Below, piece by piece: positions 4,987 through 20,085 of a stretch of 20,085 nucleotides of DNA. The DNA is taken from positions 1-20,085 of the IMG/VR virus record IMGVR_UViG_3300024518_000317; one strand, 5' to 3'. Origin of the DNA: a virus. The notes beneath the pieces were generated by a model. The model was not told where the DNA came from. It did not search any database and was given only the letters and a program-made list of their open reading frames with translations. Position numbers and translations under genes: made by a program. Numbering within the stretch: position 1 is the stretch's first letter; each line of letters opens with the position of its first letter.

Positions 4987-4997
4987 ATTATACCATA
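4987..4997 (-). promoter_or_regulatory. Extended -10 promoter motif before the tape measure gene
   Basis: The minus strand reads TATGGTATAAT, one mismatch from the TGTGGTATAAT motif repeated through the window. It lies between the chaperone stop (5006) and the tape measure ATG (4964). No TTGACA-like -35 element is seen at 16-18 bases. Transcription would begin near the A at 4981. Confidence 0.65.
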
Positions 4998-5005
4998 GAG
5001 AGTTT

Positions 5006-5739
5006 TTATCCTAAGGGATTTGAGGGAGCATTTTCATCGCCTTGAGTGAACCTTGCATATCCCATATCTTTGCCCATTTGGAAACCTTTTTGTGCTCCGT
5101 ACCTTCCCTGCAAAGAAAGAATGTCATTAGCATCTTTAGCCGCACCACCCGATGAAACACGAGCCTGAATGTCCTCAAAGGTGGATGCTTTCTTTTGTTC
5201 TGCTTTCTTTGGCTGCGGCCTTCTACCTGTCTCTTTATCTAGATCAACTCCCTGCATGGCTGCCGCAAACTTTTTATCATTGTACTCCTGCTCACGCATA
5301 CTTTCCAATATCATAATAAGTTCAGCCATGCATAGGCTGTCTTCTAACTCTTCAAAGTTTTTCCATATACCTGATAGGAAAACTTGCGACTCTAACTCAG
5401 CGAGATCTAGTTCGTCCCAGGTAGTCCCGCCGCTGGGTTTCCCACTTCATCAAACTTAATGCCTGATGCGGCTTCTACAACCTTGTAGACAGAGGGTAGG
5501 TCAATTGAATCTTCTAGACGCTCACGGTCATCAGAGAGATCAGGAGAGTATTGCTTCATAGCAATCTGGACACAATCAAGTAGAACATCCATGCTCTTGT
5601 CGTTATCATCTGCAACCTCTGCGATCTCACCAAACTTCTTCATAAACTCACGAAGTAGTGAAATCTTGAGTGGACGCATAGAAATCTTGGTGCCGTCAAG
5701 CAACTCAATCTCAGTTGTTTCATAAACTGTTGTAGCCAT
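5006..5739 (-). CDS. Tail assembly chaperone, long form made by -1 frameshift (G-GT type)
   Basis: The predicted product has 244 residues: 101 from the first frame, then 143 after a -1 slip at GGGAAAC (5437-5443). The junction reads DEVGN then PSGGTTWDELDLAELE, and the protein ends in NAPSNPLG. By analogy with lambda G and GT, the long form binds both tube subunits and tape measure during tail assembly and is absent from the virion. The second frame also contains an ATG at 5329, which gives a 107-residue reading. However, good protein-like sequence continues upstream of it to the slip site, and no strong ribosome binding site precedes it. The C-terminal extension is charged and rich in Q, K and D (for example GRRPQPKKAEQKK). 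The position between tail tube and tape measure is diagnostic. Confidence 0.85.
5407..5739 (-). CDS. Tail assembly chaperone, short form (G type)
   Basis: This is the unshifted 110-residue product, beginning MATTVYETTEIELLDGT and ending GLPGTN. It starts at the ATG at 5739, which has AAGGA 6 bases upstream. A longer in-frame start at 5967 is rejected because it would overlap the end of the tail tube gene and read through the hairpin and promoter. The protein is small, helical and acidic, as expected for the abundant form of a siphophage tail chaperone. It is identified mainly by its place between tail tube and tape measure and by the slippery site 8 codons from its end. Confidence 0.85.
   Translation of the reverse strand: MATTVYETTEIELLDGTKISMRPLKISLLREFMKKFGEIAEVADDNDKSMDVLLDCVQIAMKQYSPDLSDDRERLEDSIDLPSVYKVVEAASGIKFDEVGNPAAGLPGTN
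5437..5443 (-). promoter_or_regulatory. Programmed -1 ribosomal frameshift site GGGAAAC
   Basis: The heptamer is in the required phase (G GGA AAC) in the chaperone frame. The -1 frame has a TGA at 5447-5449 just upstream, and the zero frame ends with TAG at 5407-5409, so the shift must occur in a window of about 40 bases that contains this heptamer. A weak CCCAG/CTGGG stem (5433-5437 with 5416-5420) overlaps the last base of the site; no strong pseudoknot is obvious. Confidence 0.88.
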
Positions 5740-5761
5740 TTTATTCCTTAAAGTAGTAGTA

Positions 5762-5777
5762 TAGGCTTTTTTGCCTA
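5762..5777 (-). other. Short stem-loop in the chaperone mRNA leader
   Basis: TAGGC and GCCTA form a perfect 5-bp stem around a six-A loop in the transcript. If transcription starts about 7 bases past the -10 motif at 5783-5793, the stem sits at the extreme 5' end of the mRNA, about 23 bases before the start codon. A role in mRNA stability is inferred only. Confidence 0.45.
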
Positions 5778-5782
5778 CCCCC

Positions 5783-5793
5783 ATTATACCACA
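5783..5793 (-). promoter_or_regulatory. Extended -10 promoter motif before the tail chaperone gene
   Basis: This is an exact TGTGGTATAAT on the minus strand, immediately downstream of the GC-rich hairpin at 5796-5830 and 44 bases before the chaperone ATG. No -35 box is evident. Confidence 0.7.
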
Positions 5794-5795
5794 CA

Positions 5796-5830
5796 CCGAA
5801 ACCCCCGCCCAATAGGGACGGGGGCTGCGG
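5796..5830 (-). terminator. Hairpin terminator after the tail tube gene
   Basis: On the minus strand CCCCCG, a bulged T, CCC, a TATT loop, GGG and CGGGGG form a 9-bp GC stem. An outer CCG/CGG stem lies beyond a 3x3 internal loop. Only three T residues follow, so the U-tract is weak. It lies 22 bases past the tail tube stop and directly before the next promoter motif, fitting a terminator that separates the abundant tube message from the chaperone message. Confidence 0.65.
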
Positions 5831-5851
5831 TTTATTATGTTGTATGTTTTA

Positions 5852-6688
5852 TTATGAAATTGTTGGTACACCTGAAATTGAGTAGGTGCGGTCGATGATA
5901 CGTCCGTATGAACCATTGTTTGCAGGTAGCAAACGGAAGTTGGCATCGAATGTTGATGCAGCGTCACGAGAAACTGAGACGGTTACTGCATCCATGCTAA
6001 GTGCACGGAATGCAACGTAGATACGCTCAATCTCGGAACCTACCTCACAGTCACCTGTGCCTGGTCCAACGGCGCAAAGAGCACGCTCAATTGGGCACTC
6101 ACCAAGGTTACCAGCGTTGATTTCCAACATGTCTAGACCGTCAGTAACGCCTGAGACGTAACCTGCGGTTGCTGCAACTAGACCCTCACCCTCTGTTGAG
6201 GCTGAGATACCTGCTGCACCAACACCAGTGCTATCATGCTGACCATCGTTAAGGGAGTCGTCACGGACACCTGAGTAAGTATCAGGTAGACCTGTGTCGG
6301 CATCCCTTGCGGTAAGACCGTAGTTAAGATCGGCTGGGCTTGCGGCGATTGCGTAGAGAAGGTTCTCTAGAGTAGCCTCTGCGAAGGTTGTGTTAAGCAT
6401 AACCTCCATACCCTGCTTGAAGATCTTAGCGGAGTCTAGCAACTGATCAACCTCAACCTCACCGAAGTCAGGTGTGATGGTGATTTCCATACCATTTTGG
6501 GTGTATCCAACGTTGCGCCACTTCTCGCCACCTGTGCTCATCAGAGTATCCTTGTAGGACTCATCTGCAAAGGCTGGCATGTCAGCGGTAGCGGGATCGG
6601 GTAGCGGACCACTTGAATGAACAAATAGTGCTGCTGCACCGACGATGATGTTCTTGGAGTCACCACGCTTGTACGAATTTACTGCCAT
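5852..6688 (-). CDS. Major tail tube protein
   Basis: This 278-residue protein begins MAVNSYKRGDSKNIIVGAAA. It is the probable subunit that stacks into the tail tube. Support comes from position (after the connector genes, before the frameshifted chaperone and tape measure), from its own promoter and a strong GAGGTG ribosome binding site 9 bases before the ATG, and from a beta-rich composition. The N-terminal part (for example GMEITITPDFGEVEVDQ, residues about 66-82) resembles tube proteins, in which an offset or baseline value is followed by a beta sandwich. The acidic, glycine- and alanine-rich middle (about 120-180) is probably a loop or an inserted domain. No sheath gene precedes it. The family call is by context and general character; sequence identity to a known tube protein was not tested. 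Confidence 0.8.
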   Translation of the reverse strand: MAVNSYKRGDSKNIIVGAAALFVHSSGPLPDPATADMPAFADESYKDTLMSTGGEKWRNVGYTQNGMEITITPDFGEVEVDQLLDSAKIFKQGMEVMLNTTFAEATLENLLYAIAASPADLNYGLTARDADTGLPDTYSGVRDDSLNDGQHDSTGVGAAGISASTEGEGLVAATAGYVSGVTDGLDMLEINAGNLGECPIERALCAVGPGTGDCEVGSEIERIYVAFRALSMDAVTVSVSRDAASTFDANFRLLPANNGSYGRIIDRTYSISGVPTIS

Positions 6689-6759
6689 AATTTTTTCACC
6701 TCTTTTATTGTGTAATGTATTGGAGATACACTACGGTTAGGGGTGTTTCCTCGTTGTAT

Positions 6760-6770
6760 ATTATACCACA
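6760..6770 (-). promoter_or_regulatory. Extended -10 promoter motif before the tail tube gene
   Basis: This is an exact TGTGGTATAAT on the minus strand, 3 bases after the stop of the upstream gene (6774). TTGCTT occurs 17 bases upstream of TATAAT, making this the copy with the best -35 candidate. The predicted leader is about 65 bases and ends with the strong GAGGTG site. Confidence 0.7.
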
Positions 6771-6773
6771 ATT

Positions 6774-7295
6774 TTATCGGTTAAGCAATGCTTTGCGTTC
6801 ATTGTAATGAAATTCTGTTTCAATGATGAACTTACTTACATAATACTGACTTGTGGTGTAGTTCCTCTGTGCCCCTGAACTTGAGATCTGCGTAGAGGTT
6901 TGGAATACCCGAACGTGATGGAAGAAGATTCCGTAGTCCTTGTCCTTATTGTAAGCATTGATATCCTGTGCTACATCGTCCATGCCGTCAAGAATGTACT
7001 GTACGGCAGAACCTAGGGCCATAGAGTCTGATGGATTTGCTTTGAGAGCGTAGTGGATCTGCTCCTTCTTGATGGGGTAGAATGGGTTAGGATTGATAAC
7101 CATCATTCGGTCATATACAAATGTAGGCAACTCTTCCCAAGGAGTACCGCCAGATGCACTCTCGCCAAGGGGAAAGAATGGCTGTACGCCATTGTATTCT
7201 AAAACAAAGTCTGGGTCTAGTTCTGCTATTTTGCTCCAAAGGTATCTATTAACGGGTACCGCTGGAACCATAGGAACCATATCTTTTAATGCCAT
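6774..7295 (-). CDS. Probable tail terminator (tail completion) protein
   Basis: This 173-residue protein begins MALKDMVPMVPAVPVNRYLW. It is the last gene of the connector block, directly before the tail tube gene, where siphophages encode the tail terminator that caps the finished tube. The sequence alternates predicted helices and strands, with an acidic helix DGMDDVAQDINAYNKDKDYG (about 104-123) and a beta-like C-terminus (YYVSKFIIETEFHYNERK). It begins with a TAATG overlap with the preceding gene's stop, so translation is probably coupled. The role is inferred from gene order and size; no catalytic motif is expected or seen. Confidence 0.6.
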   Translation of the reverse strand: MALKDMVPMVPAVPVNRYLWSKIAELDPDFVLEYNGVQPFFPLGESASGGTPWEELPTFVYDRMMVINPNPFYPIKKEQIHYALKANPSDSMALGSAVQYILDGMDDVAQDINAYNKDKDYGIFFHHVRVFQTSTQISSSGAQRNYTTSQYYVSKFIIETEFHYNERKALLNR

Positions 7296-7957
7296 TATCC
7301 AATACCTCCCTTAATTGTAGCATACTTCTTGCCTTGCCTTTTACCAGATGAATAAGACATGCCCCTTCTCCATCCACGAAAAAACTCGTCTGCTGTTGAA
7401 AAGTCTCTTAGCAATTCCTGTACCAAAACTCTGTCTAGATAATTGTTGAAGAACTCACGGAACACCTGCTCATATCCACCCTCTGTCTCTGGACCGCCTG
7501 GACTTTGTACTGTTACACTATTGGGGGTAAAAACCATCTCTCCATCTTCCCCCTCAAAAGCAAGAACACTACCCTCTTGTGGCTCAATCGTTACAGCAAT
7601 ACCCTCTTCCATGATTCGTGCTTTGTCGTAAAATGGGGTATTTCCTGTTGGTGGGATTGACTCACTTGGTAGAAACTTGGATACAAACCTAATGAAACCA
7701 GAACCAATGAATGCGTCAAGATCAAACAGACGAGCACCTGGGCTTCCAGTCTGACCCCATTCGTATACATGGTGCAAAGATGCTGGATCTAAGCGTGCAG
7801 AAGAATCAACATACTTGTAGAATGCTTGCTTTGTTACCTCTGCTATTTGACGCAACATCATTTGCTCTTGGGACTGTACACCATTGAGAAATCCATTTGA
7901 GTATTGGATAGCATTGTTTATTACTTTATTGAAGTCAGTTGCATCTACACTTATCAT
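7295..7957 (-). CDS. Probable head-tail connector or neck protein (gp10-like)
   Basis: This 220-residue protein starts with MISVDATDFNKVINNAIQYS. The N-terminal third is helical. The middle carries proline- and glycine-rich loops (SPGARLFDLDAFIGSG; PSESIPPTGNTPF), and the C-terminal part is helical and aromatic, ending with a basic glycine-rich tail (GKRQGKKYATIKGGIG). The ATG overlaps the upstream stop as ATGA, and the next gene starts in a TAATG overlap, so it is embedded in a tightly coupled block. Its position between the stopper-like and terminator-like genes suggests the HK97 gp10 or minor tail completion role. I cannot assign the family from residues alone. Confidence 0.55.
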   Translation of the reverse strand: MISVDATDFNKVINNAIQYSNGFLNGVQSQEQMMLRQIAEVTKQAFYKYVDSSARLDPASLHHVYEWGQTGSPGARLFDLDAFIGSGFIRFVSKFLPSESIPPTGNTPFYDKARIMEEGIAVTIEPQEGSVLAFEGEDGEMVFTPNSVTVQSPGGPETEGGYEQVFREFFNNYLDRVLVQELLRDFSTADEFFRGWRRGMSYSSGKRQGKKYATIKGGIG

Positions 7958-8502
7958 AGCATCCCCTGGTCATCGGCACGCTCTAATAGCATCTTGTAAT
8001 ATTCAATCTCGTTCCAAGGATTAATAAAAGGATCAACACTCATAACCTCAAAGATGATAGGGCTACCGTCCTCGTTTAGGTGAAGTTCCTTTCCTGTTGC
8101 TGTGTCCTTGATGTTTGTAATAATCATATCTGTGAATGGGTGGTACTCTCCTGTACTATCTACCCGTGGATCTACATCACCCATAAACCTACCATTCAAC
8201 CTTTTCTTATATTCAAATTCTCTGTCCGCTGAGAGGTCTTGGAGATTTACGGTGCCCATGACGTTCCAGTAGGCTTTCTTTTGCGTCCTATCCATGTACC
8301 AGACCTTTATTGCCTCACCGTATTCATTCTGCCCCGCACCACCAGTCACGACGTTTTCTTGTGGTAGTGGGTTGCCAAACTCATCTTGAAACTGTCCTGA
8401 TGGAACAAGGATTGACTCTGGCTCTTGATCTAAGTAGGTGTATGTACAATAGTAAACATCGCATTGCATTCCACCTAGGAAGGCTGGAAGTTGCACGCCC
8501 AT
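7954..8502 (-). CDS. Probable head closure (stopper-like) connector protein
   Basis: This 182-residue protein starts with MGVQLPAFLGGMQCDVYYC. The sequence is rich in short strands and aromatic residues (KVWYMDRTQKKAYWNVMGTV, about 66-85), suggesting a small beta barrel followed by a C-terminal helix. Stop and start are adjacent (TAAATG) with the preceding adaptor-like gene. In siphophages the second gene of the connector set usually encodes the stopper that closes the packaged head. That role is inferred from order and size only; the protein could also be another neck component. Confidence 0.5.
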   Translation of the reverse strand: MGVQLPAFLGGMQCDVYYCTYTYLDQEPESILVPSGQFQDEFGNPLPQENVVTGGAGQNEYGEAIKVWYMDRTQKKAYWNVMGTVNLQDLSADREFEYKKRLNGRFMGDVDPRVDSTGEYHPFTDMIITNIKDTATGKELHLNEDGSPIIFEVMSVDPFINPWNEIEYYKMLLERADDQGML

Positions 8503-9483
8503 TTACAACACCCCAAGACGACGGAGTTGTGGCTTCTTGTTTAGGTATTTCTTTAGGATCATATCAACAGGCTCACTACCTGTAGAACCAAATCCACCTA
8601 ACGCCTTGCTCCTATCTCCATACACTAACTTGAATTGGTCTGTGGAGTATTCCTTGATGTAGTCATCCATTACGTTACCGCCGATGTGTCCTGTATCAAT
8701 CCAGTTCCGCAAAAGGATTAGTGCTGCTAGAATAATGTCGTCGGGGACATTCTTGTACCCTCCACCTAGTATCCAGTTGTAGTAAAAGTTTTTGGGAAAG
8801 AATGGTGAATGACGATCATAGTTTCTGTATGAATCAGACCTTGGACGCTTGTACCTTGGCTCATGACCTGCCTCAAACCTACGCTCTCCCCACACCGTAG
8901 TAGCGGCTGTGCGGTCTTGTGTCAGTTCGTAAGACCTCCAGTTTGTCCACTCTTCTCCTTCTTTTGGATACTTCTTGTAAACGTGGATGTTGTTCTCCCA
9001 TACGTCTAGGATCTCCGACAATCCCCCTTGTGCGTATGGCTCATTATCCATACCGTTCATTCCTGGGAGGGCAAAGAAATCAATACCTAGCCCCTGTCCC
9101 TCAAACGGCATACGGGTGTAATAGAATCCACCAGTAATGGCATCAATAAGTGCCCGAATAAGTTCTTCTCCTTGTGGATCAAAGTCTGGATTGTTTGGGT
9201 CTATGTAGGGGTGAACAATTGTTAAATCTTCTACAAAGTCTGTTTTGGAGTCATTCCATGTGTAACCTGCCGCCACCTCTTGTACGGAGAGATCGTATGT
9301 TTCATCAAACATATTAAATGGATAGTCTGGAAGATCAAAGACAATATTCCCAGAAGCGTCTGAGGTAATCGCATCCCCCCAAGTTGTGAAGTTGTTTACA
9401 ACAGCAACATCATATTCTGTAAATGGCTTTCCGTCTGGAATAGTTACAGTTATGGGCTTGGGGGGATTACGATATACCTTCAT
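8503..9483 (-). CDS. Probable head-tail adaptor with an extra N-terminal region
   Basis: This 326-residue protein starts with MKVYRNPPKPITVTIPDGK. The C-terminal part (about residues 240-326) resembles head-tail adaptors that dock under the portal: a helix DIILAALILLRNWIDTGHIG, a second helix ending in KEYSTDQFKLVYGD, and a last helix EPVDMILKKYLNKK with a basic tail. The first 230 residues are not expected in a small adaptor. They contain strand-rich segments and an aromatic-rich region (NNIHVYKKYPKEGEEWTNW). The start overlaps the preceding stop as TAATG; upstream AAGGGA may serve as a weak ribosome binding site. The adaptor call rests on the C-terminal pattern and gene order; the N-terminal function is unknown. 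Confidence 0.55.
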   Translation of the reverse strand: MKVYRNPPKPITVTIPDGKPFTEYDVAVVNNFTTWGDAITSDASGNIVFDLPDYPFNMFDETYDLSVQEVAAGYTWNDSKTDFVEDLTIVHPYIDPNNPDFDPQGEELIRALIDAITGGFYYTRMPFEGQGLGIDFFALPGMNGMDNEPYAQGGLSEILDVWENNIHVYKKYPKEGEEWTNWRSYELTQDRTAATTVWGERRFEAGHEPRYKRPRSDSYRNYDRHSPFFPKNFYYNWILGGGYKNVPDDIILAALILLRNWIDTGHIGGNVMDDYIKEYSTDQFKLVYGDRSKALGGFGSTGSEPVDMILKKYLNKKPQLRRLGVL

Positions 9484-9965
9484 TACATTCTACGTCCCTT
9501 TGGGCCTACCAGTTGCCCTGGCTTAATACCAGAAGCCTGTGCCCTAGCAAGTTCATCCTTAGATGCTGCACGAACATCTGGAAGTCGAACCCACATTACT
9601 GCAAGATCTTTCTTTACGATGTTGTACCCTAGATCTAGTTTACCCAACTTAGAAGAGGAGTAACGACGCTCAGAGTAAATACAAACCTTGTCGTCTTGTG
9701 CGGTTGGCTTGTTAGCATTTACGACGAGTTCATCTAGACGGATATCAATTTCTTCTTGCTCTCGTGCTGCACGAGCATCCTCTGTAGGTGCTGTTATGAC
9801 ACTAGGGGTCTCAGGCTCGGCATCAAAAGTGATCTCTTCTGATGGTGCCTCTGTTGCTTCTAGAATAGCAACAATGTCTGCCTTTTTCGTTGCGCTCTGC
9901 AACTTAATACCGTTGGTCTTTGCGTATTCCCGCAACTCCCGAATTGGCATATCTTTAAAATTCAT
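9483..9965 (-). CDS. Phage protein with N-terminal helix-extension-helix (SAP/Rho-N-like) domain
   Basis: This 160-residue protein starts at ATG 9965 (MNFKDMPIRELREYAKTNG), with AAGGAG 7 bases upstream. A longer frame from 10043 is rejected because it would run through the terminator and promoter. Residues 4-36 (PIRELREYAKTNGIKLQSAT followed by KKADIVAIL) match the helix-extension-helix pattern of SAP, HeH and Rho-N domains, which bind nucleic acid or act as protein interaction modules. Residues 38-75 are an acidic, proline-containing linker. The C-terminal half is folded and mixed. It is the first gene of the connector block, just after the capsid gene, so a head-completion or capsid-associated role is likely. 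The exact function is unknown. Confidence 0.75.
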   Translation of the reverse strand: MNFKDMPIRELREYAKTNGIKLQSATKKADIVAILEATEAPSEEITFDAEPETPSVITAPTEDARAAREQEEIDIRLDELVVNANKPTAQDDKVCIYSERRYSSSKLGKLDLGYNIVKKDLAVMWVRLPDVRAASKDELARAQASGIKPGQLVGPKGRRM

Positions 9966-9993
9966 AGTTGTCTCCTTCACTACTATTGACACT

Positions 9994-10004
9994 ATTATAC
10001 CACA
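9994..10004 (-). promoter_or_regulatory. Extended -10 promoter motif before the connector block
   Basis: This is an exact TGTGGTATAAT on the minus strand, 10 bases after the capsid terminator hairpin. The predicted leader is about 22 bases and contains the AAGGAG site of the 160-residue gene. No -35 box is seen. Confidence 0.7.
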
Positions 10005-10014
10005 AATGCTTGAA

Positions 10015-10038
10015 GGGGGAGAGCCGTAGCCCTCCCCC
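10015..10038 (-). terminator. Strong hairpin terminator after the major capsid gene
   Basis: In the transcript GGGGGAGGGC pairs with GCUCUCCCCC (10 bp with one G-U) across a UACG loop, an exceptionally stable UNCG-type tetraloop closed by C-G. It begins 17 bases after the capsid stop. The following UUCAAGCAUUUG is only mildly U-rich. It probably ends or reduces the capsid message and protects its 3' end. Confidence 0.75.
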
Positions 10039-10055
10039 AACATAGCGCATATGAA

Positions 10056-11396
10056 TTATGCTGTGTACTCGGTGTATGCAACTGCATCCAACTCTTCCCA
10101 GGCAATACCGAACCGCATGAATACTGTGTATTCAATTGTGTCCTTCTTGCTCTGGTACTCACGGTTGACCGTGATATCACGCTGAATTCCCCAGATACGG
10201 TTCTGTGGGAATGTTAGTTCAACGTAATCTTCTGGGAAGTAAGGTACCTCAAGAACGGGCACACCAAGAACTCGGGTAGCCTGTGGCCCACCGAATTCCT
10301 GGCCGTTTCCATTGAGGTATGCGTTTGCATACTCGTAGGAAGCAGGCCATTGTCCTGTGTTGGTTCCTGTGCCATTAGCAGCCACGATCTTAGCAAAGGT
10401 ATCGCTACCTGCGTAGAAACGTAGACCACTCTTGATGGCACGGTACTTACGAGGCATTGCTAGGATGATCTCCTGCATGACCTCGGTGTCCCATGTTGGG
10501 TCGCCTGCGGCAACTGCAACTGGATCTTGTGCTCCACCCTCATTGATGAAACGATCCCAGTCACCTACTGGCTGTGCATTCTGATCTAGAGTATCTGCGC
10601 CACCTGCGGCACCTGCGGCGGTTGCGAATACTGGTGGAACTGCTGCGTGAGCCTTGTTCTGCACCTGTACATGGAAACCGTCCATGATACCCAAGAATGG
10701 ATCCGTAGTCTTACCTAGGTCACCATTAATGGCTAGATCCTCAATGTCATTAGCAAATGCTGCTGTCATCAAACGTACTAGGTGATCTTCTAGTGCTGCA
10801 CCTTCGATATTATCTTCAAGTGCCTCAGTTGAAACCTCCCAGTCAAGACGCAACTTCTTGGTAGAAAGGTCTACCTTAGTGAATGTTGCCCCTGCGTTCT
10901 CGTATGAACCATCAGCCTGTGCTGCGGCACGGAGAACTCGTTGACCAACGTTGATCTTTTCTAGTTCAACGGTGTTTGCACGCATTGTGATGCGTCGACC
11001 GTCCTTTGCAAGAACGGTTCCATCCCAAACGTAATCAATGAACTGACGAGCCTGATCTGGGTTAAGGACACCACCACCAATCTGACCAGATGGATTAATA
11101 TCTAGTGGACTGGCTTCCCCCATTGCCTGAGGATTGAGTGCTTGCCCCATGTTTCCATAGTTAAGTGCCTCGCCATCGTTCTGCTGTCCAACACCACCAA
11201 CACCAATGTATCCTGATGCGTGATGTGTGTTTGGGTTACCAACGTTTTCAGTGGTGCCTGGGTTACCAGTTGCGTTCTGAACTGGGTTAACACCTGGGTT
11301 GACTCCCTGACGATCTGCGGCACCTTGTACCTGATCACCAGCGGCCTTCTTTAGGCTAACGTCTGAAAACTCTTCTGTAGTAATTTCGTCTGACAT
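10056..11396 (-). CDS. Major capsid protein, HK97 fold
   Basis: This 446-residue shell protein starts at ATG 11396 (MSDEITTEEFSDVSLKK), chosen because a near-perfect AGGAGGTG lies 9 bases upstream; an in-frame ATG at 11516 is inside the protease gene. Residues 105-446 show the HK97-family pattern: LNPDQARQFIDYVWDGTVLA at 111-130, a VEL/RVLR strand region, a helix with ALEDHLVRLMTAAFANDIED, a GSDTFAKI P-domain segment, and a closing strand VFMRFGIAWEELDAVAYTEY. Residues 20-104 are unusual: rich in N, G, Q and P with NPG, VNP, GNPG and GNPN repeats, rather than the helical delta domain normally found. The gene follows the protease-scaffold gene by 34 bases without its own promoter motif and ends before a strong terminator. 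Confidence 0.92.
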   Translation of the reverse strand: MSDEITTEEFSDVSLKKAAGDQVQGAADRQGVNPGVNPVQNATGNPGTTENVGNPNTHHASGYIGVGGVGQQNDGEALNYGNMGQALNPQAMGEASPLDINPSGQIGGGVLNPDQARQFIDYVWDGTVLAKDGRRITMRANTVELEKINVGQRVLRAAAQADGSYENAGATFTKVDLSTKKLRLDWEVSTEALEDNIEGAALEDHLVRLMTAAFANDIEDLAINGDLGKTTDPFLGIMDGFHVQVQNKAHAAVPPVFATAAGAAGGADTLDQNAQPVGDWDRFINEGGAQDPVAVAAGDPTWDTEVMQEIILAMPRKYRAIKSGLRFYAGSDTFAKIVAANGTGTNTGQWPASYEYANAYLNGNGQEFGGPQATRVLGVPVLEVPYFPEDYVELTFPQNRIWGIQRDITVNREYQSKKDTIEYTVFMRFGIAWEELDAVAYTEYTA

Positions 11397-11405
11397 AATT
11401 CTATT

Positions 11406-11413
11406 CACCTCCT
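11406..11413 (-). promoter_or_regulatory. Strong Shine-Dalgarno of the major capsid gene
   Basis: AGGAGGTG on the minus strand, 9 bases before ATG 11396, decides the capsid start and predicts very high translation. It lies in the 34-base gap after the protease-scaffold stop. Confidence 0.9.
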
Positions 11414-11430
11414 GATTTTTTTTCTGTAAT

Positions 11431-11913
11431 TTAGAATAGGTCGGACTTCTTGAGGAAACGACCGTCCCATAGTGATTTCTCAACCATTGCTGGCTGAGAC
11501 TGCATGATTTCTCCAAAATCAGCAGACTTTCGGAAAGCAGTATCTTTTTCTACTGCGTCAACACGCTTTCCAAACTCTTGATCTTGTGCCCTGAGGGTGA
11601 CAAACTCGCTATTAAGTGTAGCGACTGCCTTGGAGACCTCAGATACCTGTGAATAAACCTTTGTAACTGCATCAGCAAGAGCCTTGATTTCAAGAATCTG
11701 TGTTGAGATATCGGCTACTGCTGTAGTCAATGCCTCGATTTTCATCTCTACTGTATCAATCTCTTCGGCCTGCTCTTCGGTTGCCTCTTCTGTTGTTTCC
11801 TCTACAACTTCCTTGACTTCCTCTACGGCCTCTTCAACTTCTGCCTTCACTTCTCCAACGGCTTCTTCTACTGCCTCGGGGGTTTCAGGAGTGGCTTCTG
11901 TATTTTCGGACAT
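11431..11913 (-). CDS. Nested in-frame scaffold protein
   Basis: An internal ATG at codon 244 of the protease gene (MSENTEATPETPEAV) is preceded by AAGGAGGT with 7-base spacing, far too good a ribosome site to be expected inside a gene. It would yield a separate 160-residue protein identical to the protease C-terminus. Residues 10-57 are almost entirely E, V, A, T and K. Residues 57-125 form a heptad-like coiled coil (for example MKIEALTTAVADISTQILEI). The end (SLWDGRFLKKSDLF) is basic and aromatic, typical of a capsid-binding tail on a scaffold. Lambda Nu3, nested in the protease gene C, is the classic precedent. The protein would direct shell assembly and be digested by the protease. Confidence 0.75.
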   Translation of the reverse strand: MSENTEATPETPEAVEEAVGEVKAEVEEAVEEVKEVVEETTEEATEEQAEEIDTVEMKIEALTTAVADISTQILEIKALADAVTKVYSQVSEVSKAVATLNSEFVTLRAQDQEFGKRVDAVEKDTAFRKSADFGEIMQSQPAMVEKSLWDGRFLKKSDLF

Positions 11914-12642
11914 ATTCTCTACCTCCTTATTTTTCCTTACTGTGGTTAGAATGCCCTTAACCATCTGTGCCTTGTCGGGGTCGTTCGACTCAACAAAGCC
12001 GATGTTTTCCATTGCTTCGCTACAGCGAGGACAGGCTGACTTCACGGTAGATGACAGTTGAACCACATCATCGTGACCGCAATAGTACACATTTTCGATT
12101 AGTGCCTTAGCAAGCATACCCGTTACATCGCCGTTCTTCTGAATAGATAGAACGTTAGCAAACTGATTTGCTGGAACATCCACAAGAGACAACTCACTTA
12201 GAGTAAACTCTTTGATAACACGGACGCTCTTTTCAAGGTCACCATCATACATAGTGTCCTCTTCATCAATACTACCTGCAATAGAAAATCCTGTGAGAGT
12301 GCCGTCAAGAATCTTTTCCCAAGTGTCTTGAGCACCCTTTGAAATATAAGCAGATACATAAACTCCTGCGTACATTTTATTTGCATCTGAGTCAAAATAG
12401 GTATCTTCCTTGAAGTCTACCATTTTGCCTACCGCTTTCTTTGCGTCATGCTGTTCACGGATATTGCCTGCAAAGTTGTGAAAAGCATTTACTGATGCTT
12501 CCTTTGTTACAATATCGCCTTGTCGATCTAGATTATCAAGAGATGCAAAACCGCTTACAGTTCGCCTTTCTTCATCTACCTTGGCGATGGGCATAGAAAC
12601 CCGTACAGCATTATTGTCTAATGAGAAATTTGCCTTTTCCAT
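11431..12642 (-). CDS. Prohead protease fused to scaffold (S78/XkdF-like)
   Basis: This 403-residue protein starts at ATG 12642 (MEKANFSLDNNAVRVSMPIA). Residues 15-170 form the capsid maturation protease: VSGFASLDNLDRQGDIV near 29-45, the likely catalytic H65 in REQHD, S120 in TGFSIAG, and E150 in ELSLVDVPAN, giving the expected His/Ser/Glu order. Residues 188-207 contain C188, H190, C204 and C207, a possible zinc ribbon not typical for this family. Residues 244-403 are an acidic repeat and coiled-coil scaffold that also appears to be made separately from an internal start. The protease would cut the scaffold and the capsid N-terminus after shell assembly. The start codon has no ribosome binding site and lies 10 bases from the promoter motif. 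The next in-frame ATG (M17) has none either. Confidence 0.88.
   Translation of the reverse strand: MEKANFSLDNNAVRVSMPIAKVDEERRTVSGFASLDNLDRQGDIVTKEASVNAFHNFAGNIREQHDAKKAVGKMVDFKEDTYFDSDANKMYAGVYVSAYISKGAQDTWEKILDGTLTGFSIAGSIDEEDTMYDGDLEKSVRVIKEFTLSELSLVDVPANQFANVLSIQKNGDVTGMLAKALIENVYYCGHDDVVQLSSTVKSACPRCSEAMENIGFVESNDPDKAQMVKGILTTVRKNKEVENMSENTEATPETPEAVEEAVGEVKAEVEEAVEEVKEVVEETTEEATEEQAEEIDTVEMKIEALTTAVADISTQILEIKALADAVTKVYSQVSEVSKAVATLNSEFVTLRAQDQEFGKRVDAVEKDTAFRKSADFGEIMQSQPAMVEKSLWDGRFLKKSDLF
11921..11928 (-). promoter_or_regulatory. Internal Shine-Dalgarno for the nested scaffold
   Basis: AAGGAGGT on the minus strand lies 7 bases before the in-frame ATG at 11913, within the protease coding sequence. 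It is among the best ribosome sites in the window. Confidence 0.8.
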
Positions 12643-12652
12643 AGTGTACCCT

Positions 12653-12663
12653 ATTATATCACA
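12653..12663 (-). promoter_or_regulatory. Extended -10 promoter motif before the protease gene
   Basis: The minus strand reads TGTGATATAAT, one mismatch from the consensus but still TGnTATAAT. Only 10 bases separate TATAAT from the protease ATG, so the transcript would have a leader of roughly 3-5 bases. TTAAAA lies about 17 bases upstream as a poor -35 candidate. Confidence 0.65.
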
Positions 12664-12687
12664 TTTTTGTAACGTTTTAATTTTTTT

Positions 12688-12701
12688 GTTAAAATTTTAA
12701 C
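12688..12701. repeat. Perfect 14-bp AT-rich palindrome
   Basis: GTTAAAATTTTAAC is a perfect inverted repeat one base after the portal stop codon and about 25 bases upstream of the protease promoter motif. On the minus strand it is followed by seven A residues, not T, so it is not a standard terminator for these genes. It could be a protein-binding site or an UP-like element. Confidence 0.45.
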
Positions 12702-12702
12702 A

Positions 12703-14259
12703 TCACTCAGTTTTAGTACCCTCACCCTTGGGATTTCTGCCATCTACTGTGGCTACTCCGTCGCTTTGGGAGTTTGTCCTTTCACGCTGACGGGCAGAAT
12801 TTCCTTCTGCATTTTGACGCTGACTTGCTTGTTGTTGTGATGACATTTCAACCATTTTATCGCTACCCTTGCGTGCTGGCAAGCCAAGAATCTCACGAAC
12901 CTCATTGGGAGTCATTGCTTGGTTTCGTAGGTAACGCTCGTGGATCTGAGACATAGCAATTTCATCAGTCAATGTTGCCTCTTTGAACATCAACTCAACA
13001 ACATCTGTCTTTTCCTTAGTTATTTGAGAGATTGTTTTTTGCAGATGCCGTTGGGCTGGGCGGGTGACTTGCTCCTTGAATGTGCGGTCTTGAGAAAGAG
13101 CAGCAGCAATAGCAGATGCATCCACACCACCTAGTTTAGACAAAGGAACCTGATGAGCCATTAGGATATCGTCACGGTTTTGCTTACGATAGTCCTTGAA
13201 TGATCCATCCTGTACTGTGTTTTCTACGGGATGCATTTCAAAATCAACCTTGTTGCCATCGGCATCAGAGGGTAGAGGCACATACAAGGTACGGTGATTC
13301 TGTCCCTTTAGCCCTGTTTGTAGGAAGCGGAACAGACGCTCTTCACTCTCTGGGGATAGTTGAGCACCCTTGACTGTTACGATGTAACGAGGCACAGCCT
13401 TGTTTTCAAAATAGTCAATGTTGTATTGTGCGGCAAACTGCTCTCCCTTAATTGCCTGCAAAGCAGAAATAACATCAGGGATGCCGTAGTAAGTATTGAG
13501 GGGTGAGTATTCCTTGAAGTGAATAATCTCATTGGGTCGTGGATCATCGGTAACAGGGTTTGGATTCGTTGCCCCGAACTTTCGGAAGTAAACAACCTTC
13601 TCTGCTACGATCTGGATATATCCATCGTGCAAACGACGAGCACGCATTGTGGGTGCTGGAACGTGTCCAAGGTATCCAATCTCGCCTGTTGTGGTTCGAC
13701 CGATCTCCAAGTATCCATTACCTGTAGCAAGCATATCGGTGAGGACACGCTCCATTGTTCCTGTGAATGTAGAATCATTATTTAGGCTTTCTAACCAATC
13801 TTCCATGGTTGCCTTCAAACGATCAATCTTCCTGTGGATAAAGTCTAGTTTTTCTCCTGTCTCATCTTCTACCTTTTGCATAGTAGCAGAAGTCATCTTC
13901 CAGTCATAACCAAGACCAACGATGTTCTCTACCTTAGCGTCAATAGCAGCATGGTTAGCAAAGTTAGAGTCATAGAAGTTTGCTAGTTCTACAAGATCAT
14001 AGGGTGGTTGAATAACATCAAAAGTTGCATAACCCTTTCCCTGCCGTGAGTTTAGTGACTTTCTACCAGCGTCATCTCTACCTGTTGCTCGTGATTTGGA
14101 GTCTTCCAAGTATCCTTTTACTACTCGTGAAGTACGACGCTTGAAGTTTGTATCTAGGCCACGCATATCTTTAATCTCATCCCAAGACTTTTGGAATGGA
14201 TCGTAAAACTGTGGTCCCTCTTCTTCAAAGTCAAATGTCTTTGCTACGATATTAGCCAT
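12703..14259 (-). CDS. Portal protein (PBSX/HK97-like family)
   Basis: This 518-residue subunit of the dodecameric ring at the packaging vertex starts at ATG 14259 (MANIVAKTFDFEEEGPQFYD), with AGGA upstream. A longer frame from 14307 would only extend into the previous gene. Typical portal features are a wing-like N-terminal domain, LADML-type helices (VLTDMLATGNGYLEIGRT, about 183-200), the NEIIHFKEYSPLNTYYGIPD segment followed by VISALQAI near residues 240-267, and the long crown and stem helices with RNQAMTPNEVREILGLP (about 450-466). The last 50 residues are polar and probably disordered. The start overlaps the preceding gene's stop by 8 bases (ATGGCTAA), implying coupled translation. Terminase, usually upstream, is not in the window. 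Confidence 0.93.
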   Translation of the reverse strand: MANIVAKTFDFEEEGPQFYDPFQKSWDEIKDMRGLDTNFKRRTSRVVKGYLEDSKSRATGRDDAGRKSLNSRQGKGYATFDVIQPPYDLVELANFYDSNFANHAAIDAKVENIVGLGYDWKMTSATMQKVEDETGEKLDFIHRKIDRLKATMEDWLESLNNDSTFTGTMERVLTDMLATGNGYLEIGRTTTGEIGYLGHVPAPTMRARRLHDGYIQIVAEKVVYFRKFGATNPNPVTDDPRPNEIIHFKEYSPLNTYYGIPDVISALQAIKGEQFAAQYNIDYFENKAVPRYIVTVKGAQLSPESEERLFRFLQTGLKGQNHRTLYVPLPSDADGNKVDFEMHPVENTVQDGSFKDYRKQNRDDILMAHQVPLSKLGGVDASAIAAALSQDRTFKEQVTRPAQRHLQKTISQITKEKTDVVELMFKEATLTDEIAMSQIHERYLRNQAMTPNEVREILGLPARKGSDKMVEMSSQQQASQRQNAEGNSARQRERTNSQSDGVATVDGRNPKGEGTKTE

Positions 14260-14611
14260 CTTGTATTCCTGCCGCCTTCTTTGCGTCTGTAACTGCGTTG
14301 AAGTCATTCATGGTTGGTAGTAGCCCTGACTTCATTCTTTCACGCTGTTCTGTGTACTCTTCATCTGTGGCTCGTTGGATACCAGGAATAAAGTATGGCC
14401 TGCCCTCTGGCTCACCGTAATGGGCAGCGGCATTGGTAATCTGAGCCATCTTGTCCATATCGTATTGTCGGGATGGAATGTTAAGTAGGTTATGATCTTC
14501 ATCCATAAACAAACTTCCATCTGCCTTCTTCCAAGCGTAAATACCCCAACCTGGATTCTCGTCTACTACAGTTACTCGTGGTTTCTTTAGTGCTTTCCTT
14601 TTATTTGACAT
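14252..14611 (-). CDS. Unknown 119-residue protein coupled to the portal gene
   Basis: I do not recognise this protein (MSNKRKALKKPRVTVVDENP at the start). It has a basic N-terminus, then a segment GWGIYAWKKADGSLFMDEDH that looks like a small beta hairpin, a helix with MDKMAQITNAAAHYGEPEGR, and a polar C-terminus. Its stop overlaps the portal start, so it is made alongside the portal and may be a virion or packaging accessory. The start at 14611 is preferred over 14695 because the promoter motif lies only 6 bases before it; ATG 14617 (MVMSN) is an alternative that would touch the -10 element. No Shine-Dalgarno precedes either, consistent with a leaderless message. Confidence 0.75.
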   Translation of the reverse strand: MSNKRKALKKPRVTVVDENPGWGIYAWKKADGSLFMDEDHNLLNIPSRQYDMDKMAQITNAAAHYGEPEGRPYFIPGIQRATDEEYTEQRERMKSGLLPTMNDFNAVTDAKKAAGIQDG

Positions 14612-14617
14612 AACCAT

Positions 14618-14628
14618 ATTATACCACA
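14618..14628 (-). promoter_or_regulatory. Extended -10 promoter motif for the 119-residue gene and portal
   Basis: This is an exact TGTGGTATAAT on the minus strand. Exactly 6 bases separate the last T of TATAAT from the A of ATG 14611, so the expected start of transcription is that A. No ribosome binding site can fit between them. Confidence 0.68.
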
Positions 14629-14651
14629 AGTTATAGTTTGCGTGACGGAAC

Positions 14652-14673
14652 AAGACCAGATTATGAAGGTCTT
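14652..14673 (-). terminator. Weak hairpin at the end of the LamG-like gene
   Basis: AAGACC and GGTCTT form a 6-bp stem with a 10-base loop that includes the stop codon at 14661-14663, followed by GTTCC. It precedes the next promoter motif by 23 bases. The stem is short and the U-tract poor, so termination is uncertain. Confidence 0.35.
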
Positions 14674-17540
14674 CTATCAAATGTTTTCCACTCAACGCCA
14701 GTAGCCATGGTTGTGTTCATTTCCCCTACCTTGAGTGGTGGATCTTCTGAGCCTACGCTGGTGGTATTTCCACCTGTAAATATCTTATAAATCTGTGTTG
14801 GATCAACGGGGTACTGTAGGTATGCTCGTGAAGAAACGAGATCTGCAAAGGTTTCAACAGATGGGTCATTAACCCAGTCTCCCCAAGTCTGAATCCTTAC
14901 ACCTTCCCAAAGCCTAACGATAGCGGTGCTCTCTACCTGTGTTTCTGATAGTGCTGACACAGAGATGTTTTGATAGACTGCCCCCTCATTTAAAATAATC
15001 TTATATAAGGTAGAGACAGAGAAGTCAAGTGGTTCACCAAACTCCACGCCCACCATTGTCCACTTATCTACATCGAATGTAAACTCTGTAACCTCTTCAC
15101 CATTCTGATATAGGGCAACATACTCAATGGGAAGATCATTTCTACGCAACACCCAACCAGTACCGTTGTGCTTTATATCCATTACTCCGTTACGAGATAC
15201 AATAGAGAACAGGGTGTTTTCGGTATCCATAAGGATATTGGGCTTAATAAACATATTAAGGTTACCAACCAAATATGGGAAATTACCGTTAGGGTTGATT
15301 GGCGTATTAACAGGGCCGTCTAGTGGCTCTATGCCGCTGTCTTTTGTTAGATATAGATATGGTGTATTCTCTTTGTATATAGCAAAGTTGTCTGTTGATG
15401 ATAGTTTGTTCCCGAACCTAGTTCCAACCTCTGCCTCATCCTTGTACGCCTGCGAGGACATAGAAAGTTGTTTTACAGAGAATGGAGAAGATATTACGGC
15501 TTCTGCATAAACATCAAAATGTACAACTATTTTCCAAGAATCGTAATTTTGTGGAGGCACAACTACTGTACCATTTATCCATTCAAATTTTGTAATAGCA
15601 AGATCTGGGGCTGTCATTCCACTTACATCAATTATTCTGTTTTTAGGTAGGCTTTGTGTTGATGTAAACTCTCTTAGCAACTTATTATTCTTTGCCTCTA
15701 ATGGTTGGAAAGTTATGTAGCACTTCATTTCACTACCACCCACATCATAGCCATTATCTCTAATCTTGTACAATCCGTCGTACCCGATGTTTAGTTGCAA
15801 CAAGTCAAGTTTTGATTCGTAGGTTCCATCATCTTTTTGGAAGTTCCTACCAAAGTAAGATAGAGGAATTGCATCCTCCCAGAATCCTCCTGCCTCAATG
15901 TCAAGATAGAAGTTTCCATATCTTATGAAGGGTCTAATGACATAGGTACCCTTTGACGTAGCCATGTTGTGATAAGGATTAGCAATGCCGCTTGGGAAAT
16001 ATTGCACCAGTTCTTCACGAGCAACCATTGCTGTATCACTAAGACCAACACGATAAATTAAACCAGAGAATGTGCTTTCTCCATCACCACCAACAAACAC
16101 CTCAACATCAGCAAGGCTTGTAAGGAAGTTCTTAAACTCAACACTCTCTTTTACAATCGCATTCAAATCAAGACCCACAGTAAAGGGAACATCATCCTGC
16201 ACAGGGAAAGAATACTTTACATCACCGTTATATATATAGTGAACGTTGTTTCCCTGTATCACAATGTCGATAACATCATCGGTATACCGTTTCACAAATC
16301 TGAAAAGTGGTTGAGGGTCGGTGCTAGTTTCGTACCAATGCTTAGAAAAGACTCCATAGATAATCTGCGGGGGAGACTCTAGTTTCTCAATGCTATCAAA
16401 GTAGAAGTATGAGTTTTGCGTCCAGTCAAATTCAGGCTTGAAGGAGAATCCAGGGCTTACTGTTTCTGTTGAGTTGTTGAATAGGTTTTCTTTGTATAAG
16501 TTTTCTAACTTTCTACCCTGGATAAAAATTTCTGGAAGTTTGTAGTTTGGTGTCTTTACATATCCACGGCTTGTAACCAATCCGCTAATGTATCCTGTGT
16601 CCCAATTGAAAACATCTGGGTAGATAGCGGAAGTTGCGTAATTTGCAAACGACCAGTCAATGTATGTGGTAGAGTTTTCGAAGAATGTGGAGAATGATGC
16701 TGCGTCGGATAGACCTTGACCCCATACAAACCTACGTTTACATACTTCATCAGGAACAATGTAGGGGAAGATAGAGAAGCAATCAACCTCAAACAAATCA
16801 ATCTCTGGGTATCCCATGAATCCAAGCAGACCTTCACCAGTCACCTCATCGTTAATAGGATCAAAGTTAAACTCTTCTGGATTAAGATCAAGAGAGATAA
16901 CCTCTTGTCCGTTTATAAGAAGCCTTGCCTGGTTTGATGTGTATGTTACATTCAAGAGCATTGGCCTAAACCAATTTTCGATAGCAAAAGACTTGTACTT
17001 GTTTCCTACTGCTAAAGTTATGTAATTGTCTTTGACCCAGATGCCGTCCAATGTAGTTAGTGTGCCCCAGATCTTACGAGGAACATCTACCCTTGGATTA
17101 ATGCGGGTCCAAAACTCATATGTGTATTTGTTGTATTTGCCACCGTTGGTGAACATGCCGTAACCGTTATGCTCAATTCCTGCCTCACCAAACTCAATTA
17201 CGAAACGCTCTTCCTCTAGCAATTCCTGAAATGTAATGTTCTCGTTGTACCAGAACTTCCAATCTACTACAAATCCTGTATTTGAGTATGTCTTTACTTG
17301 TGACCATAACCGATCTTCTGTTTCAATAATGATACCCGTGCTGTCTGATGTTACCCCAACTGATTGACTAGAACCATAAACAAGAGGCAAACCTGTTGTA
17401 TAGCCGTCGGCAACAATTGCTGGGAAGTCGTCAGAGAAATACTGCAAAGAGGCGTTAGAGGTGATATCATCTAAAGTCCATGTAGCAATTGGGTGCTCTC
17501 CAAAAAGTCTTGCTGCATATAGATTAATGTCTCTAGCCAT
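14661..17540 (-). CDS. Large LamG-like (concanavalin-fold) virion protein
   Basis: This 959-residue protein begins MARDINLYAARLFGEHPIATWTLDD. The GEHPxAxWxLDD opening and the spacing of strands resemble LamG/jelly-roll phage structural proteins. Three beta-sandwich-like segments can be seen: about residues 140-230 (KYTYEFWTRINPRV ... RLLINGQEVISLDL), 395-505 (QIIYGVFSKHWYETS ... FSGLIYRVGLSD), and 765-870 (MFIKPNILMDTENTLFSIVS ... VDKWTMVGVEFG). LamG domains bind sugars or proteins, so a surface appendage or host-binding role is plausible. The position between the ribonucleotide reductase and portal genes is unusual for a tail fibre and leaves a head decoration role open. It has its own promoter motif 8 bases from ATG and no ribosome binding site. 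Function is inferred. Confidence 0.75.
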   Translation of the reverse strand: MARDINLYAARLFGEHPIATWTLDDITSNASLQYFSDDFPAIVADGYTTGLPLVYGSSQSVGVTSDSTGIIIETEDRLWSQVKTYSNTGFVVDWKFWYNENITFQELLEEERFVIEFGEAGIEHNGYGMFTNGGKYNKYTYEFWTRINPRVDVPRKIWGTLTTLDGIWVKDNYITLAVGNKYKSFAIENWFRPMLLNVTYTSNQARLLINGQEVISLDLNPEEFNFDPINDEVTGEGLLGFMGYPEIDLFEVDCFSIFPYIVPDEVCKRRFVWGQGLSDAASFSTFFENSTTYIDWSFANYATSAIYPDVFNWDTGYISGLVTSRGYVKTPNYKLPEIFIQGRKLENLYKENLFNNSTETVSPGFSFKPEFDWTQNSYFYFDSIEKLESPPQIIYGVFSKHWYETSTDPQPLFRFVKRYTDDVIDIVIQGNNVHYIYNGDVKYSFPVQDDVPFTVGLDLNAIVKESVEFKNFLTSLADVEVFVGGDGESTFSGLIYRVGLSDTAMVAREELVQYFPSGIANPYHNMATSKGTYVIRPFIRYGNFYLDIEAGGFWEDAIPLSYFGRNFQKDDGTYESKLDLLQLNIGYDGLYKIRDNGYDVGGSEMKCYITFQPLEAKNNKLLREFTSTQSLPKNRIIDVSGMTAPDLAITKFEWINGTVVVPPQNYDSWKIVVHFDVYAEAVISSPFSVKQLSMSSQAYKDEAEVGTRFGNKLSSTDNFAIYKENTPYLYLTKDSGIEPLDGPVNTPINPNGNFPYLVGNLNMFIKPNILMDTENTLFSIVSRNGVMDIKHNGTGWVLRRNDLPIEYVALYQNGEEVTEFTFDVDKWTMVGVEFGEPLDFSVSTLYKIILNEGAVYQNISVSALSETQVESTAIVRLWEGVRIQTWGDWVNDPSVETFADLVSSRAYLQYPVDPTQIYKIFTGGNTTSVGSEDPPLKVGEMNTTMATGVEWKTFDRRPS

Positions 17541-17548
17541 AATAGTTC

Positions 17549-17559
17549 ATTATACCACA
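17549..17559 (-). promoter_or_regulatory. Extended -10 promoter motif at the LamG-like gene
   Basis: This is an exact TGTGGTATAAT on the minus strand. Only 8 bases separate TATAAT from ATG 17540, predicting a leader of one or two bases. The motif is abutted on its upstream side by the hairpin at 17558-17585, whose last bases it shares. Confidence 0.7.
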
Positions 17560-17585
17560 GATGCCCCCTCTTGGGGGGCAATCTG
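17558..17585 (-). terminator. GC-rich hairpin between two tandem promoter motifs
   Basis: CAGAT, a bulged T, GCCCCC, a CAAGA loop, GGGGGC and ATCTG form an 11-bp stem on the minus strand. No U-tract follows; the next bases belong to the promoter motif at 17549-17559. It probably ends transcripts coming from the reductase gene or from the promoter motif at 17633. Confidence 0.6.
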
Positions 17586-17632
17586 CAGCAGACCTATCCT
17601 AACCACAGTTGAAGGTTCTGTCTCCTAAATTT

Positions 17633-17643
17633 ATTATACCACA
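17633..17643 (-). promoter_or_regulatory. Extended -10 promoter motif overlapping the reductase stop
   Basis: This is an exact TGTGGTATAAT on the minus strand. It overlaps the last codons of the ribonucleotide reductase gene; the TAA within TATAAT is that gene's stop. It would transcribe the 93-base gap before the LamG-like gene and meet the hairpin at 17558-17585. Confidence 0.6.
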
Positions 17644-19727: not shown

Positions 19728-20085
19728 TTACTTTGGTGTTAAAGATTTTACTTTGTGCCCGACGATTGTGTCGGTTGGTTCGCCATCACGATAGACACGA
19801 ATAGCAGCGGCAGGGGAATCAGGTGTTCCTGTAATAGTCAAAGAAGAGTTAGGAACGCTGTAAGACCCGTTGTTGATAACACGAAGAACCTTACCCGATG
19901 CCCTACCACCTGATGAGTTCCAAGATACCATCTGTCCTACTTTGACTGACTCTGCCTTTTGGAATGAGAATGCGCTACCTGACCACAATGCCTTCTGTGA
20001 TCCCTTGATAGCATTACGCTTTGACTGTGCCCATGCTGCACCACTATCGCCACCCCAAAGGAGCCAAGCAATAAGACCGTTGGAT
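19728..20085 (-). CDS. C-terminal part of a phage protein ending in a Tudor-like domain
   Basis: The frame is open to the right edge, so the N-terminus is outside the window; the 119 visible residues begin with SNGLIAWLLWGGDSGAAWAQ. A TTG at 19988 is not needed as a start because coding-like sequence continues upstream. The C-terminal half (VKVGQMVSWNSSGGRASGKV, then IRVYRDGEPTDTIVGHKVKS) resembles the hypervirulence-associated Tudor family, a small SH3-like barrel in which a GGxxxGxV strand pair is diagnostic. The upstream segment with the WLLWGGDSG motif is unrecognised; comparable WGGD-type tails occur on phage virion proteins. The gene lies 39 bases before the reductase gene without a promoter motif, so the two probably share a message. 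Confidence 0.7.
   Translation of the reverse strand, partial: SNGLIAWLLWGGDSGAAWAQSKRNAIKGSQKALWSGSAFSFQKAESVKVGQMVSWNSSGGRASGKVLRVINNGSYSVPNSSLTITGTPDSPAAAIRVYRDGEPTDTIVGHKVKSLTPK

Follow-up and report, generated by a model that had tools for sequence, protein, structure and literature searches.

An extended -10 motif without a -35 element as the probable late-gene promoter class of a putative aquatic actinophage

Two phage proteins are known to act on domain 4 of a host sigma factor. AsiA of T4 binds it and shifts promoter choice, gp39 of Thermus phage P23-45 displaces it, and remodelling by either protein spares extended -10 promoters, defined by the motif T-R-T-G-n-TATAAT (PMC7403470). 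The middle and late promoters of P23-45 are, like those described here, a late class of extended -10 promoters, serving a phage whose host belongs to a different phylum; P23-45 has gp39, whereas the present phage has a candidate switch protein only, and many of its copies are fused with a start codon. In the middle promoters of T4 a MotA box replaces the -35, while here no upstream element at a fixed offset stands out among 17 late copies. The general TRTGn class is built from the same elements; here they form a near-invariant string along one gene class, with no -35. The kind is thus already known from the late promoters of P23-45, and what is new is the near-invariant, -35-less and often start-codon-fused variant. 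A literature search for the 11-mer returned, by title, nothing on phages among its matches (PMC2412878 concerns Thermotoga promoters).

The window, that is, the whole stretch of 20,085 nucleotides that was analysed, carries six exact copies of TGTGGTATAAT on its minus strand (5783, 6760, 9994, 14618, 17549 and 17633) and two with one mismatch (TATGG at 4987 and TGTGA at 12653). All eight are where the initial annotation had placed them, and the plus strand has none even with one mismatch allowed. The copies and the neighbouring features, with leaders as predicted, are:

17634..19688, minus strand, ribonucleotide reductase (RNR) gene (phrog_367)
17633..17643, minus strand, TGTGGTATAAT copy overlapping the RNR stop codon
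17560..17626, minus strand, candidate small structured RNA, the ~67-nt spacer between tandem copies, with a terminator-like hairpin at its end
17563..17579, minus strand, GC-rich terminator-like hairpin 3 nt upstream of the 17549 copy, occupying the place of a -35
17549..17559, minus strand, TGTGGTATAAT copy, with the ATG (17540) of a 959-aa gene 8 nt past TATAAT
14618..14628, minus strand, TGTGGTATAAT copy, N6 then ATG at 14611, a leaderless geometry
14252-14611, gene before the portal gene (phrog_9394), starting at the N6 site of the 14618 copy
12703..14262, minus strand, portal gene
12653..12663, minus strand, TGTGATATAAT copy, N10 then ATG at 12642, head maturation protease
11431..12642, minus strand, head maturation protease gene
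10056..11396, minus strand, major head protein gene (phrog_1623, phrog_10), start codon approximate
10015..10038, minus strand, GC-rich terminator-like hairpin upstream of the 9994 copy, kept in L013, L015, L016 and L021
9994..10004, minus strand, TGTGGTATAAT copy, 28-nt leader with aaggag, ATG at 9965
6760..6770, minus strand, TGTGGTATAAT copy, 71-nt leader with an SD-like sequence, ATG at 6688, Ig-domain protein (phrog_2175)
5802..5824, minus strand, GC-rich terminator-like hairpin upstream of the 5783 copy
5783..5793, minus strand, TGTGGTATAAT copy, 43-nt leader, ATG at 5739
4987..4997, minus strand, TATGGTATAAT copy (TRTG with R=A), 22-nt leader, ATG at 4964, tape measure protein
3..4964, minus strand, tape measure gene, continuing beyond the window

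Dinucleotide shuffles of the window gave 0.01 exact copies against the six found, and 0.05 matches to TRTGRTATAAT against eight. The initial annotation had proposed searching the whole phage genome for the motif and looking for it in relatives. We searched G002, a contig of 78,439 bases that matches the window at 20,078 of 20,085 bases and was taken as the same phage; 84 of its 86 kept ORFs are on one strand. TGTGGTATAAT is the commonest 11-mer of this contig (12 copies), and with up to one mismatch it occurs 28 times, always on the coding strand and never in reverse, in keeping with the claimed direction along transcription; a reversed control gave zero. Each window copy is intergenic or touches the end of a gene (the major capsid gene, which follows the head maturation protease, has no copy of its own), so the claim that no copy is found inside genes holds for all eight, counting the one that overlaps the RNR stop codon. 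It fails genome-wide, as one-mismatch copies lie inside ORFs of G002 beyond the window at 16827, 42187, 47995 and 53205.

Among the 17 late copies of G002 the second base is G in 13 and A in four, the fifth is G in 16 and A in one, and all other positions are invariant. The motif is also kept at orthologous intergenic places in kin, with a G/A swap at the R position: TATGG appears at the place of the 9994 copy in L016 and of the 17633 copy in L015. The copies share the motif only and not the flanking sequence. The extended -10 form recognised earlier agrees with the TRTG-n-TATAAT consensus (PMC7403470), and the absence of a shared -35 was borne out for the late copies, where no upstream column stands out. 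The 'extra conserved TG' has to be reinterpreted: it is the T-R of the known TRTG motif, because the R position swaps between G and A among the late and the orthologous copies. Judged by its sequence, the 11-mer is very probably the textbook TRTG-n-TATAAT extended -10 promoter without a -35, used as a late-gene class; this degree of confidence applies to the promoter class and not to the switch discussed below.

By protein comparison, portal (48%) and protease (~40-41%) are nearest to those of Streptomyces phages of the Stanwilliamsviridae, such as LilMartin. The phage is probably an actinobacterial one, distantly related to that family, and its hosts are probably aquatic actinobacteria. We distinguished two groups of kin, one marine and close (portal 80-97%), the other freshwater and large (portal 61-63%); 'marine' and 'freshwater' are working names and not habitat records, and the kin counted are related genomes that are not phylogenetically independent. 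Alignment of the portal to bacterial genomes returned five MAG bins of mixed phyla, including one of Actinomycetota at 66%; the phage motif is rare in that MAG, which may not be the host. TGnTATAAT-N6-ATG is very rare in the sampled family of the same MAG (1 in 41 genomes), which means that the host itself may make little use of such promoters. A host search with the RNR in bacterial genomes found no relative.

The presence of a -35 was compared with other viral contigs, fetched by TRTGGTATAAT followed at 6 or 12 nt by an ATG. The matches listed comprise 300 distinct TRTGGTATAAT sites, 40% of which have five or six of the six TTGACA bases at 16-18 nt, and their mean TTGACA score is 3.89, as opposed to 2.52 at random positions. 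Since a -35 accompanies 40% of the listed sites, the string marks promoters in viruses generally. The late copies of G002 (n=17) never reach 5 or 6 and have a mean score of 2.65, while for the marine-kin copies (n=25) the mean is 2.48, with 8% at 5; together they differ from the 300 listed sites at p=2.8e-8. As the late copies score like random positions, the missing -35 is a feature of this series. Protein comparison of 15 of the comparison contigs found no close kinship to G002. Among viral contigs, L337, L342, L347, L352 and L417 have several TRTGGTATAAT copies with a TTTACA or TTGACA -35.

Promoters of the form TTGACA-N17/18-TATAAT do occur in the same phage: G002 has ten, nine of them past 50 kb, and these early promoters lie outside the window and are seen only in G002. 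According to PHROGs, the first 50 kb encode protease, endolysins, tail fibre, RNR, portal, capsid and tail genes, and the region past 50 kb encodes helicase, primase, SSB, DNA polymerase, recombinase and nucleases, as well as dCMP deaminase and thymidylate synthase. In the late block the ratio of -35-less extended -10 promoters to -35-bearing TATAAT promoters is 19:1, as opposed to 3:12 elsewhere in G002 (p=6e-6), with a regional boundary at 50 kb that was chosen after the sites were seen; the split of P23-45 type, extended -10 promoters late and -10/-35 promoters early, is thus found in G002 by gene function. Three -35-less TGnTATAAT sites are exceptions in the early part (64173, 52128 and 69648). 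The first of them, a -35-less TGTGATATAAT, lies 24 nt before gene 64208, which is followed by the terminase large subunit (TerL), and the terminase is a late-type gene. The freshwater relatives retain the promoter layout; of two of them, G016 shows the same class split significantly (p=0.004), and in G012 the tendency falls short of significance (p=0.11). The series had been described as one of virion genes; it is indeed tied to a gene class, which is that of late genes generally, for it serves also endolysins, protease, tail fibres, the RNR neighbourhood and terminase. The division between early and late promoters, as read from the sequence, suggests a built-in early-to-late switch.

Leaderless mRNAs make up nearly a quarter of mycobacterial transcripts (PMC4633059), and in leaderless actinobacterial genes the ATG is likewise at or next to the start, which here is predicted from spacing only. 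An ATG stands exactly 6 nt past TATAAT in 10 of 51 cases in G002 (p=2e-7) and at 7 of 24 distinct marine-kin sites (p=6e-8); the pooled test in freshwater kin is weak (p=0.04). Because TATAAT-N6-ATG is enriched, several mRNAs are probably leaderless or nearly so, provided that transcription begins 6-7 nt past the -10. Among the matches listed, the ATG opens an ORF in 61 of 116 cases at N6 and in 32 of 111 at N12 (p=4e-4). Within the window the gene-proximal spacings are N6 at 14618, N8 at 17549 (predicted short or no leader) and N10 at 12653, and the others are longer, mostly with SD-like leaders. The mRNAs of some late genes would accordingly begin at or next to the ATG, and those of others would carry a leader with an SD-like sequence. 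N6 is no exclusive mark of the late class, as it is found also at TTGACA promoters of G002 (61998, 66871, 70061 and 77752). In LilMartin the late region has five TAnnAT-N6-ATG among 118 hexamers; this is only a hint of leaderless spacing, because the same number, out of 202, comes from its 60-132 kb region. The left-arm genes of LilMartin (L113 1-17000, minus strand) share a TAGACT -10-like box and an SD-like leader, an arrangement that differs from that of its late genes. Downstream of the RNR, freshwater kin (L118-L193) have TGTGGTAAAAT at the place of the 17549 copy, many of them with an ATG at N9.

Folding energies of -12 kcal/mol or below were found at 5 of 18 late sites and at 8% of random places (p=0.013). 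Strong terminator-like hairpins precede only three of the window copies (17549, 9994 and 5783), which supports the existence of some insulated units and not the seven separately dosed units proposed before. The hairpin at 17563..17579 is kept in kin, with a changed loop and a T-run. The predicted transcript from the 17633 copy would contain first the conserved ~67-nt spacer and after it the next copy. In six sequences, two pairs of this spacer are changed on both sides, and its z-scores range from -2.2 to -3.7; a comparison with Rfam gave no credible family, and no structured spacer RNA was seen downstream of the RNR in the freshwater kin inspected.

What reads these promoters is most likely the host housekeeping sigma factor, sigmaA, acting independently of a -35, a reading drawn from the consensus match and from the fact that the searched contigs yielded no phage sigma. 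Domain 2 of sigmaA would read TATAAT and domain 3 TRTG, so that the contact of domain 4 with a -35 would not be needed. The late copies would fire late in infection; TTGACA-N17/18-TATAAT serves the phage's early and replication genes. If an early phage protein occupied or displaced domain 4 of sigmaA, the -35-dependent promoters would fade and the -35-independent ones would remain. We advance this general form of a switch tentatively, as our preferred account of the timing, with less than even confidence in it.

The best candidate for such a protein, and a plausible one by its sequence, is encoded in the early block:

G002 68312-68611 (L100:8612-8911:+), WhiB-like protein (Pfam Whib, E=1.5e-12, over the cut-off)

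LilMartin and most of the near-complete kin contigs encode a counterpart. In G002 it keeps the four cysteines (C-Xn-C-X2-C-X5-C) and the GVWGG motif (G[V/I]WGG), and all five residues by which WhiB1 contacts sigmaA domain 4, W3, F17, F18, V59 and W60 (PMC7363131), are kept as well. It thus shares cysteines, G[V/I]WGG and contact residues with the Wbl proteins WhiB1, WhiB7 and WhiD, while its binding is only predicted. The WhiB-like protein of TM4 is dispensable (PMC3203893), which weakens the switch idea. That an early WhiB-like iron-sulfur protein takes domain 4 of sigmaA and so draws the host's RNA polymerase away from host and early promoters that depend on a -35, towards the -35-less and often leaderless late class, is, in this specific form, a rather unlikely proposal, though one that can be tested.

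The explanation that best competes with a switch shares its reading of the promoters and differs on timing alone: these may be plain strong extended -10 promoters of host sigmaA, timed by the order of DNA entry, by replication or by antitermination. We give it about an even chance. Extended -10 promoters work without a co-factor (PMC7403470), and their compact form allows terminator hairpins to abut the promoter; however, this explanation offers no reason for a -35 at the early but not at the late genes of one genome, and it leaves unexplained the -35 retained by 40% of the identical motifs from other viral contigs. A sigma factor or RNA polymerase encoded by the phage would account for the sharp split between gene classes, and a search for an ECF-type region 4 gave, in kin and LilMartin, small HTH proteins that weakly resemble Sigma70_r4_2, all below the curated cut-off. 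Yet no protein with Sigma70_r2 or r4 was found in 12 contigs, possibly incomplete, in which positive controls were detected, and the motif is a host-type consensus, which together make such a reader improbable, even though G002 may be incomplete and the gene could lie outside it. A search for a single-subunit RNA polymerase carries no information, its positive control having been silent. Still less probable is an element of RNA processing or translation start, like the Start-Associated Sequences of Cluster K mycobacteriophages. The motif does lie near start codons, but its distance to the ATG varies from 6 to 71 nt, the TATAAT core is exact and is accompanied in other viral contigs by properly spaced -35 elements, and the G/A change among orthologues falls on R. 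Chance or a dispersed non-regulatory repeat is refuted by eight copies where 0.05 were expected, by flanks that are not shared and by the conservation of orthologous intergenic places.

Host sigmaA reading -35-less extended -10 promoters would amount to an early/late code that can be read from the promoters of aquatic actinophages, a large group that is for the most part uncultured, and by which their genes could be timed from sequence. The WhiB-like candidate adds a testable proposal for the role of phage Wbl proteins; if true, such a switch would be the actinobacterial counterpart of sigma appropriation by AsiA and gp39, and would explain why actinophages carry Wbl genes. If the late mRNAs are leaderless, the series is also relevant to the use that phages make of leaderless translation in actinobacteria.

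Some further observations concern individual genes. HTH ORFs of 54-90 aa with sub-cut-off matches to Sigma70_r4_2 were seen in six of eight records (G016:17780, G021:61017, G022:70014, G023:74924, G024:43487 and W01:65552). Two endolysin-type genes of G002, both phrog_880, lie close together (5338-6243 and 6698-7603), and in the early block two tryptophan halogenase-like genes (phrog_2928; 72639-74162 and 75523-77019) flank thymidylate synthase.
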